DNA from: Chlorobiota bacterium
GTDB taxonomy: Bacteria; Bacteroidota; Ignavibacteria; OLB7
DNA length: 64,000 bases
Reading direction: 5' to 3'
Assembly: GCA_028287785.1 (NCBI GenBank)
Contig: JAQBOZ010000011.1
Location: 1-64,000, forward strand
The notes beneath the pieces were generated by a model. It saw only the letters and a program-made list of their open reading frames with translations, made no database searches and was not told where the DNA came from. This document shows positions 7,825-46,212 of the stretch, piece by piece. The translations under genes were made by a program, and so were the position numbers. Position 1 is the stretch's first letter. The number at the start of each line of letters is the position of its first letter.

Positions 7825-9270
7825 TCATCGCACCACCACCAGCCTTCGTGTTTCCACGCGCCCGCCGGTTTCCAGACGGCAGAGGTAGATGCCCGATGGG
7901 AGCCCGCGAAGATCGGCCGGCAGGGCTCGCGCGCCCGGCTCCATCGTGCCATCGAACAGCGTGGCAAGCTCACGGCCGGCGGCATCGGCCATCGTAATAC
8001 GCACGCCCGCTTCCCGACGAAGAGTAAGGCGGAGCGATACAGCGTCGCGCGCGGGGTTCGGTCCCTCCAGCACAAAGCCCGTCAGCGCCGTCGCCGCTTC
8101 CTCGACTCCGCCGGCCGCGCCGGTCGTGAAATAGAATGTGGGTGAGGCCGGCCCGTCGCCGATCGTATCGCTGCCGGTCACGCGCCAGTAATAGCGTTTG
8201 TTCGGCTCCAGCCCCTGAGCCAGATAGGTCGTGTCGGCGATCCCGGTTTTATCGAGGACGGGCGTTGTGAGGGAGGCGAGCGTGGAGATCCTGAGATGAT
8301 AGGTGCTGGCACCTCCGGCGCTGTGCCACGCGAGCGGCGCGTTGACCGGGATCGATTTCGCGTTGTTGATCGGCGCGAGCAGGGATGGAGCGGCCAGCCC
8401 CGTCGTCAGGCTTCTGACCTCGGCGAACGGGCCCCGTTCGCCGCCGTTCGATGCCCTGACGCGCCAGTAGTAGCGCTGTCCCCCCTGCGCCAGCAGAGAA
8501 GTCTTCGTCTTGCCGAGCGGCGTGAAATCGCTGGTGTCGATCGTGCTGAAATCGGCGGCATGGGAGAATTGAACCTCGTACATCACCGCGCCGGATACCG
8601 TATCCCACGTCACCGATTTCGTTGTGTCGATCCGCGTGGCGCCGTCGGTCGGGGCCAGAAGGGCAGGTGCCATCGGAGCAGGATCGGTGGAGAAGCCATC
8701 GGCGGCAATCATCATGATCACCTTCTCCAGCGGGCGATCGTTGGATGGGTCGCGCGGTGAAGCGACCACGGAGTCTGCCACATTCATCCCCGCGATCACA
8801 TGGCCGTAGGCGGTATAGTTTCCATCGAGATAGGTGGGGTTGGCGACGCAGATGAAGAACTGCGATGTCGCGCTGTTCGGGTCGCTCGATCGCGCCGCCG
8901 AGAGGATACCGCGACGATGCGAGAGCTTGCTGAACTCCGCCGGCACCGTCGCCTGGTCGGGATCGCCAAAGCCCCATGTCGATTCCGGTTTATCTTTTGT
9001 GTTCGGATCGCCCCCCTGGATCATAAAGCCGGGGATCACCCGGTGGAACGCCGTGCTGTCGAAGAATCTGATCGCCACAAGGCTGTCGAAATTCCTGACA
9101 TGTTTCGGCGCGATATCGGGGTACAGCTCGACCCTGATGGTGCCGAGCGGCTTTCCGGCACGGAACACCGAGATGGCATAGCGTGGCTTTCCGGTGGCCG
9201 GCGTCATCTGCGCCACCAGGCCGAGCGGGAGAAGAAACAGGGCTGCGAAAAGGAGTATGGTTTGTCTCAT
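7825..9270 (-). CDS. Cyclophilin-type prolyl isomerase with FN3 repeats and T9SS tail
   Basis: 481 residues from the ATG at 9270, where a signal peptide begins (MRQTILLFAALFLLPLGLVA). Cyclophilin domain ~30-200: IRVELYPDIAPKHVRNF, FFDSTAFHRVIPGFMIQGGD, NSATSQFFICVA, YLDGNYTAYGHVIAGMNV. Two fibronectin-III-like repeats follow (VSGAVMYEVQFSHA...YYWRVRASN; AGGASTYHLRIST...YYWRVTGSD). The end is a T9SS type-A-like sorting domain (GPNPARDAVSLRL ... GLPSGIYLCRLE). A periplasmic or surface isomerase exported by T9SS is the likely reading. A candidate promoter lies just upstream. Confidence 0.88.
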   Translation of the reverse strand: MRQTILLFAALFLLPLGLVAQMTPATGKPRYAISVFRAGKPLGTIRVELYPDIAPKHVRNFDSLVAIRFFDSTAFHRVIPGFMIQGGDPNTKDKPESTWGFGDPDQATVPAEFSKLSHRRGILSAARSSDPNSATSQFFICVANPTYLDGNYTAYGHVIAGMNVADSVVASPRDPSNDRPLEKVIMMIAADGFSTDPAPMAPALLAPTDGATRIDTTKSVTWDTVSGAVMYEVQFSHAADFSTIDTSDFTPLGKTKTSLLAQGGQRYYWRVRASNGGERGPFAEVRSLTTGLAAPSLLAPINNAKSIPVNAPLAWHSAGGASTYHLRISTLASLTTPVLDKTGIADTTYLAQGLEPNKRYYWRVTGSDTIGDGPASPTFYFTTGAAGGVEEAATALTGFVLEGPNPARDAVSLRLTLRREAGVRITMADAAGRELATLFDGTMEPGARALPADLRGLPSGIYLCRLETGGRVETRRLVVVR

Positions 9271-21759: not shown

Positions 21760-24700
21760 CTATAACACCAGCACATAGCTTACGAGCGGGGCTATCGGGA
21801 GCGATGGCGCCGTGCCGCCGTCGGTGGTGAGGCCGATGTATCCCACGCCGAAATCGAGCGCGTAGCCGTCGCCGAAGAACCTTGCTCCCACGATGATCGG
21901 AACGTAGCCGAGCGTCTGCATCGTGATCACCTCCATCTCCGCCTTCCATCGCCGCGCAAACCGGTAGTCGCCGCCGAAGGTTCCCACCATCGCGTTCCGG
22001 TCGAACTCCCCGACGCCGATCGCTGTATGATGCTTCAGCGCGTAGCCCCCCGTCGCGGAGACGCGGGCATCGTCGGTGCCGTAGCTGGCCGAAAGGTATC
22101 CGGCGCCGAATGATATCCGCGACTCCACCTGATCGGTGCTCTGTTCATCGTACATGCTCCGCCCCGCCTGCAACCCGAGCGCCACGTTGAGCCGCTTCGT
22201 CAGCGGCGCCGCGAATTTGAATCCCAGGGAGAACGCGCCGAACATGTTCCCCTTGACGCCTCCCCAGTCATCAGGCAGCGGCGGCGCCCCCCCCACCAGC
22301 ACCATAAGGTGGTCGCTGACGGCGTAGCCGGCCATCAGCCCGAGAAGGTCGTACGTCCCGGCCACGAACGTCCCCTTCTTCGGGATGATCGCGTTGGGTG
22401 CAAGGATCGTTCTGAAGGTGGTGGGATCGCTGTAGGGGATCGCCGGGAGGTCATCGCCATCGGTAACGCCGTGGCCGTACAACTGCGTGGCCACCGAGCC
22501 GCCGGGGCCGTCGTGGAAGAACGCCAGACGGGTCGATGTCCTTCCGCGAGCCGTTGGGGCAAACCGCACCGTGATGCCTTTCGATCCCCCGGCCGGGATG
22601 GTGAACGGGCCCATGCCGTCGGCCATCGAGAACTGCGTGGTGTCCGGGCCGACAAACGCGGCGCGCGTGATCTCCAGCGGCGCGGACCCGCTGTTCCGCA
22701 ACACCACGCGGATGGCGGTATCGCGCGATGCCCCCACCATCACCGTATCGAAATCGATGGCCTCCGTCTCCAGCCGGAGCCGCGCCTGAACCCCCTCGCC
22801 GGCGAGCCGCTGATGGAGCGTCCTTCCGCCGGCGATGATATCGGCCGTCGCGCTTCGCATGCCGGCGCTGGCCGGAAAGAACCGGAACTCCACGCTTCGG
22901 GCATCCCCCGCCGCCACATCGAACGGCGGGATGCCGGAGACCAGCGAGAAGTCGCGCGGGTTGGTCCCCGCAATCGTGATGGCGTCCACCTTCAGCGGTG
23001 CGGAGCCATCGTTTCTGATGTATCGCGTGATCACCGAATCGGTCTTCGTGCCGACAAGGCGCCTGCCGAAATCGACATCGGACGATGCCGCCCTGGCGTC
23101 CATGATGGACCAGACCGCGTCAGACTGGTCATGCTGCGATGGAATCGCGCTGATGTTCCATATCGCCGCGCGCTGGTTCAGCCCCGAGGCAATCCGTTCG
23201 CCGTCCGGGCTGAAGATGGAGTGGGACATCTGCCCGTCCCACGGGAATCGTTCCACCAGCGCTCCGGTGGTGGCATCCCAGATCTGCACATCGCCGGACA
23301 TGGCCGCCACGCGGGAGCCGTCCGGGCTGAACGTTGCATACCCGATCGCCGACTGCCCCATGCTCCTGCCGTTGTCATCGAGTTCCTCCAGCCGCTGCGT
23401 CTCCCGGCCGCTCCGGAAATCGTAAAGCGTCGGGGGCATTTCGCTTCCCGCCCATACCAGAAGGTTGGTCCCGTCAGGGCTGAAGAGCGCGCGAAGGCTG
23501 GTTCCTCCGAATTTCTTTTCATGGATCGCGCTTGCCTCGGCCCCCGTCGCGGCATCGAAAACGTGGATGGTGTCCCGCACGATGGCGGTGATATATCGTC
23601 CGTCGATGGAGAACATGGCGCTGCTGACGGGGGAGGGGAATGGTCCGAACCGGCGCACCGTGCTGCCGCTGCTCCCATCATAGATCCTGACGGTGCTGTC
23701 CCGGCCGGCCGATACGATCTGCTTCCCGTCGGGGCTGAAGACGGCGGTGTTCACCCATCCGGTGTGGCCGGTCAGCTCGAACCGCTTCCGCCCGCTGACG
23801 GCGTCCCATACGGTCGGGACTTTCGCCGTCAGCAGCAGAATGCGCGTGCCGTCCGGCGTCATGATGGGGTCGGGGGTGGTTTCCCCCTCCGTCCCGACGG
23901 TGTGCGTGGCGTCCGCCTTGTTGAAGGGGCTTCCCTTGAATGTCTGGAGAAGGCGACCGCTTGCCACATCCCAGATCTGCGCGGCGTAGTTGTCGCTCGC
24001 GGTCAGCAACCTGGAGCCATCGTGGCTGAACTCCGTATAGAACACCCTGCTCGGCCAGCCGCCGTCGGCGGGCTTTGGTGAGACCACCAGCGTCCGGATG
24101 GGCGCGCCGGTACGGGCATCCCAGAGCTTCGCCTTTCCATCCCAGCTCGCGCTTGCCAGCGTTCCTCCGTCGGGGCTGAAGGCGGTGGTGACCACCCAGT
24201 CGGTATGTCCCGAAAGCTCCAGCCCGTTCTTCTTCCCGTCACCACCAACTCCGCCGACCAGCCCGACCCGTGCCAGGCATCGGGTGCTCGGGGTTGGCGG
24301 AACGGTCCACTGGTAGCTCAGTCCCCGCGCCCTGCTGGAGATCGATCGCCACGACGCCCCCTCGTCAGTGCTGTAGTCCAGGCGCACGGTGTCGGTGGGG
24401 AGCAGCCCCTCCCAGCGGATGGTTGCCTGCTCTCCCGGCCGGAAGCTCTCGCCGCCGTTCGGCGCAAGCAGATGAAGCGTCGATTGCCCCCGCCCGCCGG
24501 CCCCGCCCGATGCGTAGATCACCGCGCCGGAGCATGCGTCCGAGGCGATCGACCAGCGCATGAACGCGAAGTTGGTATCGGCGGGAGCGTAGCGGATGGT
24601 GATCGATTTCCGTTCGCCGGCGCGGATGGCAAGCGGCAGTGGAAGATCGGACAGGGTGAACGCGGACGCGCGCGATGTGGGTGTGATGGCGGTGATGGTG

Positions 24701-25722
24701 ACCGGGCGACCCGTTGCGGCCAGATATATCTGCTGCTCCCTTGTGGTCCCCGGCGTCACCACGCCGAACGCCACGGCCTGCGGGGTGAGCGTGATCGATC
24801 CGATGGAGTTCTTCGGCGCCGTGTATCCGGCCGATGCCCGAAGCCCGCGCGCGGGGATCTCGATCGAGGCCCTGCGATCGGTGGAGCATCCCGATTCGCT
24901 CGTCCAGCTCAACTCGCATGGCTCACCCCCCTGCGCGCGATAGAGAATGGCGCGATAGATATCGGCCGCCTCCTCCACGGTGGTCACGTTTTCGAAGCAC
25001 TCGCCGCCGGTTCGCGCCGCTATCCGTTTCAGGATGGGAGGGGCGGGCATCCCGAGCGTGACGCAGAAGATCGTCGCGTTGATCTTCGCCGCGGCATCCA
25101 CGATCGCGCTCTCGTCGCCGCGTCCCTGCCCGTCGGTCAGGAATATCACCACGCGGCGGTTGCGACCCCCCGCGGCAATCGACAGGGCGCCGGCCGGAAG
25201 GGCTATCAGCCCCGCGTTGTAGTCGGTTCCTCCCTGCGGTCGCAGCCCATCGATCGCGGCGCGGAGCCGGCTTCTGTCGGCCGTGAAGTCCAGGTTCACC
25301 ATGCTCCCGTCGTCGAACGTGGAGAGCGCGCACTCCGATTCTCCCGACGGCAGCCCGTCCACCCACGCGGCGGCGGCGGCCTTCGCCAGGGCGATATTGG
25401 GCGCCTTGGATGATGAGCTGCCGTAGGCCATCGAGCTGGATATGTCGATCGTCAGGACGGAGGAGAGCGCCTGGCTGCTTCCGGGCGAGGGGCATCGGAG
25501 GGAGAGGATATCGCGCGCGGCGCCCCCTTCGTGCACGGTGAAATCCTTCTCCGAGAGGCTGGTCATGGGTGACCCCGATCCATCCAGCACATAGACTTTT
25601 GCGCGGATGGTGGGGTAATCGCTTGAATCGATCCGGGAGATCAGCAGATGTTGCGCGACGGCCGGGGGAGCCAGCATAAGCAACAGAAGGGGGAGCAGGA
25701 AGGCGATAGATTTTGTGGTCAT
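21760..25722 (-). CDS. Giant VWA / WD40 / ASH-domain envelope protein with barrel-like C-terminus
   Basis: 1320 residues from the ATG at 25722 (signal peptide ending APPAVA-Q). Order: von Willebrand A ~88-270 with MIDAS residues DISSS, GGTD and LTDGQ; ASH-like domain ~300-400; a Kre9/KNH-like segment ~410-480 (LLAPNGGESFRPGEQATIRW); about eight WD40 repeats ~500-860 (LSGHTDWVVTTAFSPDGG, TVRIYDG, VQIWDATTG); two choice-of-anchor-D/ASH domains ~875-1085; and ~230 final residues rich in alternating aromatic, Gly and charged positions that resemble an outer-membrane barrel. There is no T9SS tail. The first six parts suggest protein binding; the barrel is my inference. Confidence 0.8.
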   Translation of the reverse strand: MTTKSIAFLLPLLLLMLAPPAVAQHLLISRIDSSDYPTIRAKVYVLDGSGSPMTSLSEKDFTVHEGGAARDILSLRCPSPGSSQALSSVLTIDISSSMAYGSSSSKAPNIALAKAAAAAWVDGLPSGESECALSTFDDGSMVNLDFTADRSRLRAAIDGLRPQGGTDYNAGLIALPAGALSIAAGGRNRRVVIFLTDGQGRGDESAIVDAAAKINATIFCVTLGMPAPPILKRIAARTGGECFENVTTVEEAADIYRAILYRAQGGEPCELSWTSESGCSTDRRASIEIPARGLRASAGYTAPKNSIGSITLTPQAVAFGVVTPGTTREQQIYLAATGRPVTITAITPTSRASAFTLSDLPLPLAIRAGERKSITIRYAPADTNFAFMRWSIASDACSGAVIYASGGAGGRGQSTLHLLAPNGGESFRPGEQATIRWEGLLPTDTVRLDYSTDEGASWRSISSRARGLSYQWTVPPTPSTRCLARVGLVGGVGGDGKKNGLELSGHTDWVVTTAFSPDGGTLASASWDGKAKLWDARTGAPIRTLVVSPKPADGGWPSRVFYTEFSHDGSRLLTASDNYAAQIWDVASGRLLQTFKGSPFNKADATHTVGTEGETTPDPIMTPDGTRILLLTAKVPTVWDAVSGRKRFELTGHTGWVNTAVFSPDGKQIVSAGRDSTVRIYDGSSGSTVRRFGPFPSPVSSAMFSIDGRYITAIVRDTIHVFDAATGAEASAIHEKKFGGTSLRALFSPDGTNLLVWAGSEMPPTLYDFRSGRETQRLEELDDNGRSMGQSAIGYATFSPDGSRVAAMSGDVQIWDATTGALVERFPWDGQMSHSIFSPDGERIASGLNQRAAIWNISAIPSQHDQSDAVWSIMDARAASSDVDFGRRLVGTKTDSVITRYIRNDGSAPLKVDAITIAGTNPRDFSLVSGIPPFDVAAGDARSVEFRFFPASAGMRSATADIIAGGRTLHQRLAGEGVQARLRLETEAIDFDTVMVGASRDTAIRVVLRNSGSAPLEITRAAFVGPDTTQFSMADGMGPFTIPAGGSKGITVRFAPTARGRTSTRLAFFHDGPGGSVATQLYGHGVTDGDDLPAIPYSDPTTFRTILAPNAIIPKKGTFVAGTYDLLGLMAGYAVSDHLMVLVGGAPPLPDDWGGVKGNMFGAFSLGFKFAAPLTKRLNVALGLQAGRSMYDEQSTDQVESRISFGAGYLSASYGTDDARVSATGGYALKHHTAIGVGEFDRNAMVGTFGGDYRFARRWKAEMEVITMQTLGYVPIIVGARFFGDGYALDFGVGYIGLTTDGGTAPSLPIAPLVSYVLVL

Positions 25723-25793
25723 AACGCAGCGAGTGTTCGGTGTCCTTTGAACGTGCGGCAAAGATGCACCGATTTCAACTGTTGCGAAAGCAT

Positions 25794-26101
25794 GGTAGTG
25801 ACTCAGGTTGAGATACGGTTCATGCTGTTTGGACTCATGGTGGGAATTCGACATCTGTCCTTCCAGCCCCATCGGGGCGTACCGGTTGTAGCATCGCCAT
25901 GCCCCCATGATTCCAGGCTCCATCGGAGCGTACCATTCGGCACGGATACGGGGATGGTTCGCTCCGATGGAGCTTGAGCGGGAGATGGGAGCATTGTTGC
26001 TACAACCGGCGCGCTCCTGACGGAGCTTGAAGAGCGAAGAAGGGATCGCCGATCGATGATTGTTCAGCAGACGGAAGACTGGATTCAAACTGAGTCATTA
26101 C
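25794..26101. mobile_element. MITE-like element, full copy B1
   Basis: 308 bp with imperfect terminal inverted repeats GGTAGTGACTC / GAGTCATTAC. It is flanked by a perfect 9-bp direct repeat CGAAAGCAT at 25785-25793 and 26102-26110, which is a target-site duplication. Inside are four small GC hairpins and the pair CCGGTTGTAGC / GCTACAACCGG. No open frame codes for a transposase, so it is non-autonomous. It lies upstream of the VWA gene, between it and the anti-sigma gene. The 529-bp gap contains only this and a family A repeat. Confidence 0.85.
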
Positions 26102-26251: not shown

Positions 26252-27622
26252 CTAATGCTGCGGGATCACCAGCCGCTGCACCGCGTGCTCTCCCTTGTCG
26301 CTGCTGATCGAGATCAGGTAGACGCCGGCGGGGAGATTGCCAAGCTCGATATTGAGCGATTCATCGCCTTCCCCCACGGTGTGTTCCGCGATCAACTGGC
26401 GAATCCTGGCGCCGCGGATATCGTGGAGTGTCACGCTTATCGTGCGGGACTGCGCCAGCCGGTAGTGGAGCGTTGCGCGGTCGAGCGCCGGGTTCGGGAA
26501 GATGGACGTGTTCAGAATCGCGCCGGATGTGGTTCTGAGGATATCCAGATAGGGCTGCTCGCCCGTGACCGACGGGACCGCGGCGATATGGAGGAGGGAG
26601 TCATCGAGCTTGTGCGCCGCGATCAGCTCCTTCTCGATCTTCGTCCGGATCGGCTCGGGAAGAGCGGCCAGAAGCTCGGGCGTGGGGCGTATCCAGAGGA
26701 TGCAGTCAGGGCGCCAGTGGCCGCTCAGGCTGTCGGCCTTCGTAAACGGATGGCCGGTGCGGACGATGATCGGCATCAGCGTGTTGAGGCTCTTCTCCAC
26801 CCCCTCTTCTCCCTCTTTCAGCAGCTCCATCTGGAGGTCATACCGTTCCGGGGCGTCCGCCGGGAGCGCCGCGATCCGTGCCGAGAGGGCGGAATCCACA
26901 GCATCGCCATCGAACGACATTCCCCGCCACGCCCCGTGATCGTCGGTGACCAGCGTTGGCGGTATTGAGAGAGGAGTCACCCCCATCGATTTCGCGGTGA
27001 CGTGCTCCGGGCTGAGAAGCGTGCCGTACATCGAGTACTGCGTGGCGCTGGCAGCGGCCCCCTGGTTCACGAAGATCCATACGCCGGCGGTGTCCGCCTT
27101 CGCGCCCAGGTGCGCCAGCTCCTCCGGCGTCAACTCGATCAGCTTTACGCCGGAGATATCGACCGGCGTCACCGGCTTCGTCTTGCCTGATCCATGCATT
27201 ACCGTGTCGGCGGGGTCGGTGTTCCCAGGGATGCCCTTGGCGGCCGGCGTGCCCGAAAATGTGGTCAGGATGGGGCTTGCGGGGAGGGTATACTCTCCGT
27301 GGCCGGCGGGAGTGGAGACCGCGCTTCCCCGTATCGCTGGCGCGTTGGACGGAGCGGGGGCGGCCGTGTGTGCCGGTGCCGGCCGATAGGCGGCCTGCGG
27401 CGCGCCGGTGAAATTGAAGATTCCGATGCCGGTGATCGTTGCCACGATTGCTGCAGCTGTCATCATCATGATGCGTCCTCGATGAGTTTTTTGTTCGGTT
27501 GCGTCGGGGAGGGATTCCCCGGCCGCCGCTCTGCCATCATCCAGAAGCTGCTCGATCCGTTCGGCTGGAATTGCGCGTTGACGGGATCGTGCCTGAGCGA
27601 AATGTTCGTCGAGGTTATTCAT
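26252..27622 (-). CDS. Membrane anti-sigma-like protein with T9SS-type C-terminal domain
   Basis: 456 residues. The N-terminal ~45 residues are cytosolic and resemble Bacteroidota anti-sigma N-termini (LDEHFAQARSRQRAIPAERIEQLLDDG). One membrane helix is at ~50-70 (MMMTAAAIVATITGIGIF). A Thr/Ala/Pro-rich periplasmic region follows, and the last ~85 residues read as a T9SS type-A sorting domain (SIFPNPALDRATLHYRLA ... NLPAGVYLISISSDKG). Its ATG overlaps the sigma gene's stop as ATGA, so the two are translationally coupled. There is no cleavable signal peptide, which is odd for a T9SS substrate. The anti-sigma role is inferred from context and the N-terminus. Confidence 0.75.
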   Translation of the reverse strand: MNNLDEHFAQARSRQRAIPAERIEQLLDDGRAAAGESLPDATEQKTHRGRIMMMTAAAIVATITGIGIFNFTGAPQAAYRPAPAHTAAPAPSNAPAIRGSAVSTPAGHGEYTLPASPILTTFSGTPAAKGIPGNTDPADTVMHGSGKTKPVTPVDISGVKLIELTPEELAHLGAKADTAGVWIFVNQGAAASATQYSMYGTLLSPEHVTAKSMGVTPLSIPPTLVTDDHGAWRGMSFDGDAVDSALSARIAALPADAPERYDLQMELLKEGEEGVEKSLNTLMPIIVRTGHPFTKADSLSGHWRPDCILWIRPTPELLAALPEPIRTKIEKELIAAHKLDDSLLHIAAVPSVTGEQPYLDILRTTSGAILNTSIFPNPALDRATLHYRLAQSRTISVTLHDIRGARIRQLIAEHTVGEGDESLNIELGNLPAGVYLISISSDKGEHAVQRLVIPQH

Positions 27623-28248
27623 GACATTGCTCGTTGAAGGTCGATGGGAAGTGAGGGATCGATATCGTCGGGTTCGGGACTGCGCCCGGCGGGAAGGCCA
27701 CGATCATCGCGGCCGCCGCTTTGCAGGCGTACGCCGAGGATCGCGGCCAGATCCCGCCGTGCCCGCCACAGCCGCACCTTCACCGCGGAGAGGGAGCCCC
27801 CCTGGATGGCCTGGATTTCCTTGAGGGGAAACCCCGCGATCTCATGGAGGACCACCGTCTCCCGCTGCTTCTCCGGGAGCCGTGCCAGCGCCTCGTAGAG
27901 CAGGGTGATATCGGCCGAAACATCGGGGAGCGGATCGGACGAACGGATCATCTCCGCGCGTTCGGCCTGATACGGTTCAAACCGTTTTCCCCGCTGCCGG
28001 CGTCGCTGGTGCAGCCGTGTCGCTATCGAGAAGATGTAGCTGGGGAAGGCTTTCGGGTCCCTGATCTCCTCGAAATGTTCGAAGGCCAGGAGGATCGTTT
28101 CGCCCACCAGATCGCATCCCTCATCACTATCCCGCGTCATCGCAAACGCGAACCCCTCCAGCCGGTCGTGGACCGGTTCGAGCAATGCCAGGAAGCGCTC
28201 TTTCTTTCGCTGCCGTTCCTGGGCATGTATGGCTTGGCTGGATGTCAT
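27619..28248 (-). CDS. ECF-type RNA polymerase sigma factor
   Basis: 209 residues from the ATG at 28248; the frame upstream to 28503 is Arg-rich filler. Region 2 is at ~25-90 (MTRDSDEGCDLVGETILLAFEHFEEIRDPKAFPSYIFSIATRL). Region 4 is at ~115-170 (ALARLPEKQRETVVLHEIAGFPLKEIQAI, then GGSLSAVKVRLWRARRDL). This is a sigma-70 group 4 protein that directs RNA polymerase to a stress- or envelope-type regulon. Its stop overlaps the start of the putative anti-sigma gene by 4 bp, implying stoichiometric synthesis. Confidence 0.9.
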   Translation of the reverse strand: MTSSQAIHAQERQRKKERFLALLEPVHDRLEGFAFAMTRDSDEGCDLVGETILLAFEHFEEIRDPKAFPSYIFSIATRLHQRRRQRGKRFEPYQAERAEMIRSSDPLPDVSADITLLYEALARLPEKQRETVVLHEIAGFPLKEIQAIQGGSLSAVKVRLWRARRDLAAILGVRLQSGGRDDRGLPAGRSPEPDDIDPSLPIDLQRAMS

Positions 28249-28534
28249 TGTCGTCGATAGTTCCGTGTGATCATCATTCACGTCATCGGGAGGTGATCGT
28301 CCGGACGATCCAACCCGCGTTCCGCTCACCGGTGAGCTGCATTGGATAGGAGACAGAGCCAGCGGGATGGTTACATCGGCCGGGATAATCGGGTTGCCTG
28401 GAAGGCTCGTGGTCGCCGAACTTATGAAACATGCCGCGTGCATCGCGCGGGCCGCAACCTCTCGCCGGCGATTTCGTTCACGGCGGGGCGCTGTGTTCCG
28501 CATCGCTCGAACCCTCTCCGCTTATCCGAAACCA

Positions 28535-43899: not shown

Positions 43900-46212
43900 A
43901 TGAGATCCTTGAGAACGACGTACACGGTTTCGCTCAGCCTCGCAATGGCCCTCATCACGGTGGGCGTCCTCCTTCTCGGCGCCGTCTCCGCGTCCGCGAA
44001 GCCGGGGGATACCACCAGGGTGAAGGTGTTCGATCAATATCTCTGGACCTATTACGGAAGCCAGAACCGGTGGGGGATATTCCCCGGCAGGGACCATCGG
44101 TACGAGAAGATCCTGATGCATTATCATCTGAAGTGCCCGACGGGAACCTGCGGACAGTGGGATTACACCACCAATGTCTTTCTTGATCGCCATACCGGAA
44201 GGATCGATTCATCCATTCAGAAAGCTCCCAGCTTCACGGTCGATGGCGGCACCAGGGATTCGCTCCCCTTCCGTCGCGATACCACGCGGACCTACACATA
44301 CAACAGCAAGACCAAGCTGACCGATTCCGCCGTGAACAAGCCGGTGAAGGTGATCTTCTTCCGCGATCCGGCCCATCCGTTCAAGGCCACCGATTCGATG
44401 AACGTCTGGCCCGCCGGATATTACAACCGTCGCTACAACGCCACCGGCGCCGTCATCGATTCCTTTTACGTGCGGGGGGATTCGGTTCTGCATCTGGCCT
44501 ACAGGGATGTCTACGTGCCGTTCGAGGTGCTGGAGGAGTTCGAGATGGGGCGGCTGATCACCCCGTACGGCCAGTGGTTCCCGCAGGGGCAGGAGTTCGT
44601 CTGGACGTTCGATGTCACCGATTACGCCTACCTGCTGCACGACTCCGTCGATATCCGCTCGTTCTACGACGGATATTCGCAGGGATCGCTCTTCTCGCTC
44701 GATTTCGAGATGGTGGAGGGGACGCCGGCGAAGGATGTCTTCAGGATCGAGAATCTGTACGATGGCTATTTCGCCTACGGCAACCCGAACGATCCGATCG
44801 AGAACCATCTGCCGCCGAAGACCGTCGCGATCGATCCGGCATCGACCTCCACATCGTTGAAGATCACGACCACCGGGCATGGGTTCGGCGGCACTGATGA
44901 CGCGGCGGAGTTCTCCAACAAGACGCACACGGTGGATGTGAACGGCACCCTGCGCTTCACCCAGCATCTCTGGCGCGATGACTGCGGCCAGAACCCCGTC
45001 TATCCGCAGGCGGGCACCTGGTACTTCCAGCGCGGCGGCTGGTGCCCCGGCTCCGATGTCCGGCCGGATGTATACGATCTTACACCGTTTGTCACCCCCG
45101 GAAAGGATGCGGTGATCGACTACAACATGGAGCCGTTCGTCAACGAGGATCTCTCGCACGGGGCAACCTATATCGTCCACGCGCAGGTGATGTACGCCAC
45201 CGGGCCGAACTTCCAGAACGACGCGACGATCGATGAGATCAGGACGCCGAGCCAGGATTTCCGCTATCGCAGGATGAACCCGATATGCAGCGATGCAAAC
45301 CCGCTGATCGTGATCCGGAACACCGGCGCAAAGCCGCTCACCGATCTGACGATCAACTATGGCGTCAGCGGCGGGGCATCCGGCAGCTACAAGTGGAAGG
45401 GGAAGCTGGCGTTCATGGAGGCCACGGAGGTGAGCCTTCCCGGCATCGATCTGGGGAGCGGCGACGGTCGGTTTACGGCGACCGTGGAGAGCCCGAACGG
45501 CGTGGCCGATGAATATCCATCGAACAACTCGATGACATCGGCCTACACGGTTCCGCATACCTACTCCAGTACCGTCTACCTGACGCTGAAGACCGATGAT
45601 GTCCCGGCGATCGGCGGGACCACCAACGGCATCGCCTACGAGGTGCGCGCGCTCGACGGAACGGTCCTCTACCAGCGGGATGGCTTCGACGACAACAAGC
45701 TGATTCGCGATACGTTCAAGCTGGCCGATGGCTGCTACCAGTTTGTGATCACCGACCTTCAGATCGGCGACGGGCTCTATCCCATCTACCAGGGCTCGAC
45801 GCCCGGCTACTATCTTATGAAGGACAGTCGGAACCAGACGATCGTCAACGCCAACGCCACCAATCATCTGGCGAACTTCGGCGATCGCGAGATCATCCCC
45901 TTCTCCGTTTCCTCGGCCCTCTCCTCGGTCGATGAGAAGAACGCCGGTTCCGATAATGCCTTCGCCGTCTTTCCAAACCCGACCACGGGGGAACTGACGG
46001 TCGATCTTCCCTCGTCGGCCATCGTCGCGGGGAAGCAGGCCAGCATCCGCGTCATGACGCTGCTGGGAACGCAGGTGACTGCCACTGCACTTCAGGGGGG
46101 GGCGCGGAGCCTGAGCGTCGATCTGGGCGGCCAGCCGTCCGGCGTCTACATCGTGCAGTATATCGCCGGAGAGAAGCTCCTTTCCCGTCGTGTCCTTCTG
46201 ATGCGCCCGTAA
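43900..46212 (+). CDS. Peptide-N-glycosidase F-like protein with T9SS tail
   Basis: 770 residues from the ATG at 43900, which starts a signal peptide (MRSLRTTYTVSLSLAMALIT); in-frame ATGs at 43855 and 43861 are possible. The opening region (RVKVFDQYLWTYYGSQ, then RYEKILMHYHLKCPTGTCGQWDYTTNVFL) matches PNGase F-related proteins. A second lobe contains QHLWRDDCGQNPVYPQAGTW and RGGWCPGSDV. An Ig-like stretch (NPLIVIRNTGAKPLTDLTINYG) precedes the type-A T9SS domain (VFPNPTTGELTVDLP ... QPSGVYIVQYIAG). PNGase F removes N-glycans from asparagine; whether this member is active is not certain. Confidence 0.85.
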   Translation: MRSLRTTYTVSLSLAMALITVGVLLLGAVSASAKPGDTTRVKVFDQYLWTYYGSQNRWGIFPGRDHRYEKILMHYHLKCPTGTCGQWDYTTNVFLDRHTGRIDSSIQKAPSFTVDGGTRDSLPFRRDTTRTYTYNSKTKLTDSAVNKPVKVIFFRDPAHPFKATDSMNVWPAGYYNRRYNATGAVIDSFYVRGDSVLHLAYRDVYVPFEVLEEFEMGRLITPYGQWFPQGQEFVWTFDVTDYAYLLHDSVDIRSFYDGYSQGSLFSLDFEMVEGTPAKDVFRIENLYDGYFAYGNPNDPIENHLPPKTVAIDPASTSTSLKITTTGHGFGGTDDAAEFSNKTHTVDVNGTLRFTQHLWRDDCGQNPVYPQAGTWYFQRGGWCPGSDVRPDVYDLTPFVTPGKDAVIDYNMEPFVNEDLSHGATYIVHAQVMYATGPNFQNDATIDEIRTPSQDFRYRRMNPICSDANPLIVIRNTGAKPLTDLTINYGVSGGASGSYKWKGKLAFMEATEVSLPGIDLGSGDGRFTATVESPNGVADEYPSNNSMTSAYTVPHTYSSTVYLTLKTDDVPAIGGTTNGIAYEVRALDGTVLYQRDGFDDNKLIRDTFKLADGCYQFVITDLQIGDGLYPIYQGSTPGYYLMKDSRNQTIVNANATNHLANFGDREIIPFSVSSALSSVDEKNAGSDNAFAVFPNPTTGELTVDLPSSAIVAGKQASIRVMTLLGTQVTATALQGGARSLSVDLGGQPSGVYIVQYIAGEKLLSRRVLLMRP

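Follow-up and report, generated by a model that had tools for sequence, protein, structure and literature searches.

The window, the whole stretch of 64,000 nucleotides analyzed here, encodes an ECF sigma factor and, overlapping it, a putative anti-sigma factor of 456 amino acids that ends in a T9SS C-terminal domain (CTD). The interpretation that we favor, with modest confidence, pairs an ECF sigma factor that would regulate its own gene with an anti-sigma factor that is membrane-anchored and would cross the periplasm, dock through its CTD, and report the state of the translocon. More tentatively, and with somewhat less than even confidence, this interpretation may extend to many anti-sigma factors, which would form a widespread class of inner-membrane-tethered T9SS substrates; the machinery would grip or pull the tail and its state would be transmitted to the cytosolic sigma factor, providing a direct gauge of secretion in Bacteroidota. 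If true, a single protein that binds the sigma factor at one end and bears a T9SS tail at the other would constitute a direct link from the surface to the cytosol; PorXY-SigP with PorA is the sole regulatory route for T9SS found in the literature searched. In the portions of the literature on anti-sigma factors and T9SS covered by that search, the architecture of the window protein was not found described, and an anti-sigma factor with a T9SS CTD appears to be new to them.

Both genes lie on the reverse strand. The sigma factor gene occupies positions 27619-28248 (−), with a presumed ATG start at 28248, and belongs to the subgroup described by model A1. Its product carries the sigma-70 regions 2 and 4 that define an ECF factor, with Pfam matches above cut-off for both Sigma70_r4_2 (PF08281, 46.6 bits) and Sigma70_r2 (PF04542, 27.6 bits). 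The putative anti-sigma gene, delimited from the open reading frame, profile matches, and a structural model, spans 26252-27622 (−), and the stop of the sigma gene and the start of the anti-sigma gene share an ATGA at 27619-27622 (−). Among 135 pairs of the family, the offsets between the anti-sigma start and the sigma gene cluster from −10 to +30.

The tail of the window protein was recognized as a type A CTD at residues 369-453 (26264-26518, −) from PF18962, TIGR04183, and the model. PF18962 matches residues 374-453 with 39.7 bits (Pfam; cut-off 27, E 6e-10), and TIGR04183 matches the protein with 35.5 bits (NCBIfam; cut-off 23). In the AlphaFold2 model, computed from an alignment of 33 members, the protein ends in this region, which folds as an immunoglobulin-like sandwich of seven strands with pLDDT of about 90-96. 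Structure comparison aligns the sandwich with the PorU CTD (Z 10.1, 16% identity), the mirolase CTD (Z 9.9, 22%), and the CTD of NucA from its complex with SprA (Z 9.0, 20%), as well as with many other immunoglobulin-like folds. As the fold is a common one, the specific evidence for a T9SS role is the profile match and not the fold. Landmarks within the domain are PNP at residues 376-378, G404, G419, G433, Y435, and R450. G404 is invariant in all 92 aligned family sequences, and most family members have a basic residue near the C-terminus, which in the window protein is R450. Residues marked as functionally important in T9SS CTDs are a glycine of L-beta3-beta4, the loop that joins strands 3 and 4 (PMC11285876), and, in Flavobacterium johnsoniae, a nearly invariant lysine close to the C-terminus (PMC10994853); G404 and R450 are their counterparts. 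On these sequence grounds, the tail of the window protein qualifies as a true T9SS domain of type A. Anti-sigma and cargo tails lie apart in a CTD tree of weak resolution (7 changes versus 37 by shuffling), and this separation suggests that the anti-sigma tails may be specialized.

Four parts precede the CTD. A cytosolic N-terminal domain, residues 1-44 (27491-27622, −), consists in the model of two short helices (residues 4-13 and 20-33) and is considered putatively sigma-binding from the model and from its homology to partner proteins that have no CTD. It is followed by a membrane helix, residues 45-69 (27416-27490, −), assigned from the model and from the hydropathy of the family; by a disordered periplasmic tether, residues 72-145 (27188-27409, −), with pLDDT below 50; and by a folded ectodomain, residues about 155-365 (26528-27160, −), recognized from the model and the alignment. 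The ectodomain has a conserved motif, ILWxxPTPEL...LP, with W310 and P322 kept in at least 90% of 92 sequences, and has no match in Pfam. Neither in Pfam nor in NCBIfam does the cytosolic domain match the named anti-sigma families (zinc-finger, FecR, RskA, and others). A PDB sequence search with the whole window protein as query gave no useful match, and structure comparison of the whole model is dominated by the CTD.

The hydrophobic segment is predicted by hydropathy to be a membrane anchor. Across the 93 CTD-type partners compared, the hydrophobic peak begins near residue 53, the mean charge is +2.3 before the segment and −0.4 after it, following the positive-inside pattern, and an AxA motif occurs in only 3 of the 93. 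The cleavable Sec signal peptide of T9SS cargo is not predicted by hydropathy in the window protein, where 44 residues precede the membrane helix. The likeness to type A cargo (PF18962/TIGR04183) thus resides in the C-terminal domain, whereas the absence of a cleavable signal peptide and the presence of a cytosolic domain and membrane helix set the window protein apart. An earlier note on this DNA had described a protein coupled through ATGA to an ECF sigma factor, membrane-anchored without the usual signal peptide, and ending in a T9SS-type tail; these claims are upheld by the gene overlap and sigma-70 regions, by the helix and the hydropathy of the 93 partners, and by both profiles, and the mismatch to T9SS profiles that the note had named as one refutation did not occur.

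The architecture recurs widely. With residues 1-370 as query, one paralogue was found in the host genome and homologues were found in eight related genomes, all of them terminated by a CTD and all with an ECF sigma gene directly upstream. So as not to favor the tail, pairs were then collected only through their sigma factor (with alignment A1, whose 12 seeds come from CTD-type pairs) from named genomes (58 loci) and from 391 genomes of the class, of which 100 stretches were taken. Dereplication gave 135 distinct pairs, with 93 partner proteins terminated by a CTD, 38 without one, and 4 cut by contig ends, so that 93 of 131 complete partners carry the tail; it is not confined to a single gene, the other outcome that the earlier note had named as a refutation, and a survey of other ECF/anti-sigma pairs, which the note had proposed, finds it in most pairs of this sigma subgroup. 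CTDs were counted with local models, one built from seven cargo CTDs of the host genome without the window protein and the other from cargo and family tails combined; PF18962 itself matches 32 of 33 named CTD-type members. None of the 25 other pairs of an ECF gene and a directly downstream transmembrane protein in the host genome has a CTD, and by this comparison the association exceeds chance. The named loci come from Kapabacteria, Ignavibacteria, Bacteroidales (metagenome-assembled genomes, MAGs), and Prolixibacteraceae, and the few labelled as other phyla are probably mislabelled MAGs. A second pair of an ECF sigma factor and a CTD-type anti-sigma factor in the host genome (L072, G000:C13 about 109390-110890) does not have the conserved promoter motif described below.

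Proteins of the same family that do not end in a CTD illustrate how the outer end may be varied while the inner end is maintained. Most of the 38 have a strand-rich C-terminus, often with a terminal aromatic residue, and one model (L115), together with the look of the other C-termini, suggests that most end in a domain resembling an outer-membrane beta-barrel. The L115 model comprises two helices, a membrane helix at residues 41-62, 110 residues of disorder (62-171), and, at 176-340, a barrel of eight strands for which structure comparison gives OmpA, NspA, and Ail as matches, an arrangement like that of the Dma proteins discussed below; Pfam gives only a weak OMP match. By hhalign (probability 97.4, E 1.6e-11), the cytosolic domain of the CTD type is homologous to that of the no-CTD type, and the two types have in common this domain, the membrane helix, the tether, and the conserved promoter. 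On the sigma tree, the distribution of CTD and no-CTD partners needs at least 10 changes, 3 of them forced by well-supported (starred) branches, with support from SH-aLRT only and many placements unsure. Since proteins that are otherwise equivalent carry either this tail or an outer-membrane barrel, the tail is better described as an end reaching the outer membrane than as the decoy signal envisaged in the earlier note. Exchange of a T9SS domain and a barrel within one sigma subgroup points to a modular logic for cross-envelope signalling. Other partners vary further. In one of the same sigma subgroup (L123:5603-6937), a lytic transglycosylase (SLT) domain replaces the CTD or barrel, apparently an anti-sigma factor fused to a cell-wall enzyme; two others (L144:5589-7058 and L181:1733-3697) end in WD40/PD40 beta-propellers.

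The genomic setting of the CTD-type proteins is that of T9SS users. The host genome has the machinery that a type A CTD presupposes, with one SprA, four PorV-family proteins, and one PorU sortase, all above cut-off, and about 145 PF18962 matches above cut-off; SprA is present in all 27 CTD-type genomes checked. The four PorV-family proteins of the host (G000 C13:300184, C13:399252, C1:140170, and C3:27175) are possibly separate shuttles for different tails.

Several known systems offer points of comparison. FecR with its TonB receptor and RseA are membrane-anchored regulators read out from the outer membrane, and NlpE of the Cpx system is a self-trafficking sensor that gauges a pathway through its own passage along it; their logic is similar to that proposed here, with different domains and partners. 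Nearest to the window protein is the Dma family. Dma proteins of Bacteroides thetaiotaomicron have an N-terminal anti-sigma domain, a membrane helix, a long disordered tether, and an outer-membrane beta-barrel (PMC13088901). The window protein resembles them in a gene adjacent to an ECF gene, one inner-membrane helix, a long disordered tether, and a C-terminal domain predicted to reach the outer membrane, all in Bacteroidota, and its N-terminal domain is a candidate counterpart of their anti-sigma domain; in the model of the window protein, the single helix (45-69) and the long disordered tether (72-145) are both present. The window protein differs in having a T9SS sorting domain instead of a beta-barrel, and in an extra conserved ectodomain. 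Because it does not have the barrel that defines Dma proteins, we do not class it with them, although it would probably work in the same way; L115, of the same sigma subgroup, does have a barrel. The exchange of domain and barrel would extend the Dma idea to T9SS-using bacteria. PorA of Porphyromonas gingivalis, a CTD surface protein upstream of PorXY-SigP (PMC7712824), is similar in that a CTD protein contributes to the control of T9SS genes by an ECF sigma factor, but it has a signal peptide, resides at the cell surface, acts through a two-component route, and carries no anti-sigma part. The CTD proteins of P. gingivalis listed in PMC7712824 include none of the candidate anti-sigma genes named in the same paper.

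Evidence for regulation comes from the region upstream of the sigma gene, where a promoter-like element, TGTAACCATCCCGCTGGCTCTGTCTCCTATCC, lies at 28344-28375 (−) and scores 19.7 bits with a position weight matrix (PWM) for the sequence conserved upstream of the sigma subgroup. The consensus upstream of these sigma genes is TGYRACTTTT-N9/10-TGNCWCTTACC, and classical ECF promoters (GGAAC...CGT) are not enriched there. Scores exceed 10 bits in 107 and 14 bits in 101 of the 135 ECF upstream regions, values inflated by training of the PWM on the same regions; no shuffled or reverse-complemented region among 135 exceeds 14 bits. In the host genome, the strict motif has a single site, at the operon itself. 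Across 294 genomes it has 16 sites, as compared with one for a reversed control pattern, and 10 of the 16 precede sigma genes of the window subgroup, while none precedes a T9SS gene. Most of the remaining sites precede small lipoprotein-like or outer-membrane-like genes of one family. This pattern suggests that the sigma factor is autoregulated and that its targets have an envelope theme. The motif was observed before small lipoprotein-like genes and one outer-membrane-like gene at L262, L263, L265, L274, and L275 (family f24), a possible regulon.

How such a protein might operate can be proposed by analogy with Dma, with the T9SS signal serving as the outer-membrane end of a Dma-like anti-sigma factor that would dock on PorV/SprA without inserting a barrel. 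The N-terminal two-helix domain would hold the sigma factor in the cytosol, the single helix would fix the anti-sigma factor in the inner membrane, and the disordered tether and conserved ectodomain would cross the periplasm. The CTD would then dock on PorV/SprA in the outer membrane, into which related proteins would insert a beta-barrel instead. A protein held in the inner membrane could not be exported and would behave as a tethered T9SS substrate, and because it could not leave that membrane, engagement of its CTD could report the state of the translocon. In the absence of the motor, SprA/PorV retains T9SS substrates by their CTD (PMC10994853), so that a tethered CTD could likewise be held there. 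Lost engagement, or pulling or cutting of the CTD end, might lead to proteolysis and release of the sigma factor; the nature and sign of the signal and the proteolytic step are all conjectural. Equally conjectural are the earlier note's proposals that the protein would sense T9SS activity and set the sigma factor free when export stalls or the CTD is cleaved, and binding of the tail to PorV or PorU. Some observations count against this explanation. A pure sorting signal has no need of the internal CTD copies present in five relatives, the strict promoter search gave no link from the sigma factor to T9SS genes, the CTD fold is a common one, and the cytosolic domain matches no named anti-sigma family in Pfam or NCBIfam.

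The same observations bear on other explanations. The main rival, which we consider unlikely but serious, is a sensor of envelope spacing or of the outer membrane, in which the CTD is a grip only, on PorV or another barrel, and the signal is damage, stretch, or an ectodomain ligand rather than T9SS activity. The alternation of the CTD with outer-membrane barrels in otherwise equivalent proteins is what such a sensor would lead one to expect, as are the partners with TonB_C, lytic transglycosylase, or beta-propeller domains and the predominance of small lipoprotein-like genes of one family at promoter sites outside the sigma genes; Dma1 and Dma2, moreover, control vesiculation (PMC13088901). 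Any barrel would provide a grip, however, yet most partners (93 of 131) have retained a CTD together with its T9SS-relevant residues.

A still less probable explanation is that T9SS no longer reads the CTD-like end, which would be an immunoglobulin-like domain taken over from T9SS cargo for a binding role. The generic fold, the internal copies in the five relatives, and the separation of anti-sigma from cargo tails in the weakly resolved tree are consistent with such borrowing, but the profile match in nearly all named members, the retention of the terminal position and of PNP, G404, and the C-terminal basic residue, and the presence of SprA in every genome checked argue that the domain continues to be read. 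That the protein is ordinary cargo with an extended N-terminus, beside a sigma gene by chance and with a hydrophobic stretch that is a cleaved signal peptide, we regard as very improbable. A CTD with one N-terminal hydrophobic segment is indeed the usual layout of cargo, of which the host genome has about 145 matches of this type; against this, the same sigma subgroup adjoins in 93 pairs, the segment begins only at about residue 53 with positive-inside charge and a near absence of AxA, and the N-terminal domain is common to partners that have no CTD.

Further structural variations were observed among the relatives and in the window. The five relatives with internal CTD copies besides the terminal one show repeated units of ectodomain and CTD (family f10), with two CTDs in L088, L091, L154, and L156 and three in L134. 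In others of the CTD type (L128:5467-7404, L133:5545-7551, and two more in A5), a TonB C-terminal domain (62-72 bits) follows the membrane helix and precedes the CTD. Within the window, a large neighboring open reading frame at 21760-26088 (−) encodes VWA, WD40-type propeller, and choice-of-anchor D domains, and further T9SS CTD matches lie at 7834-8061 (−; 27.6 bits) and 45967-46179 (+; 36.8 bits).
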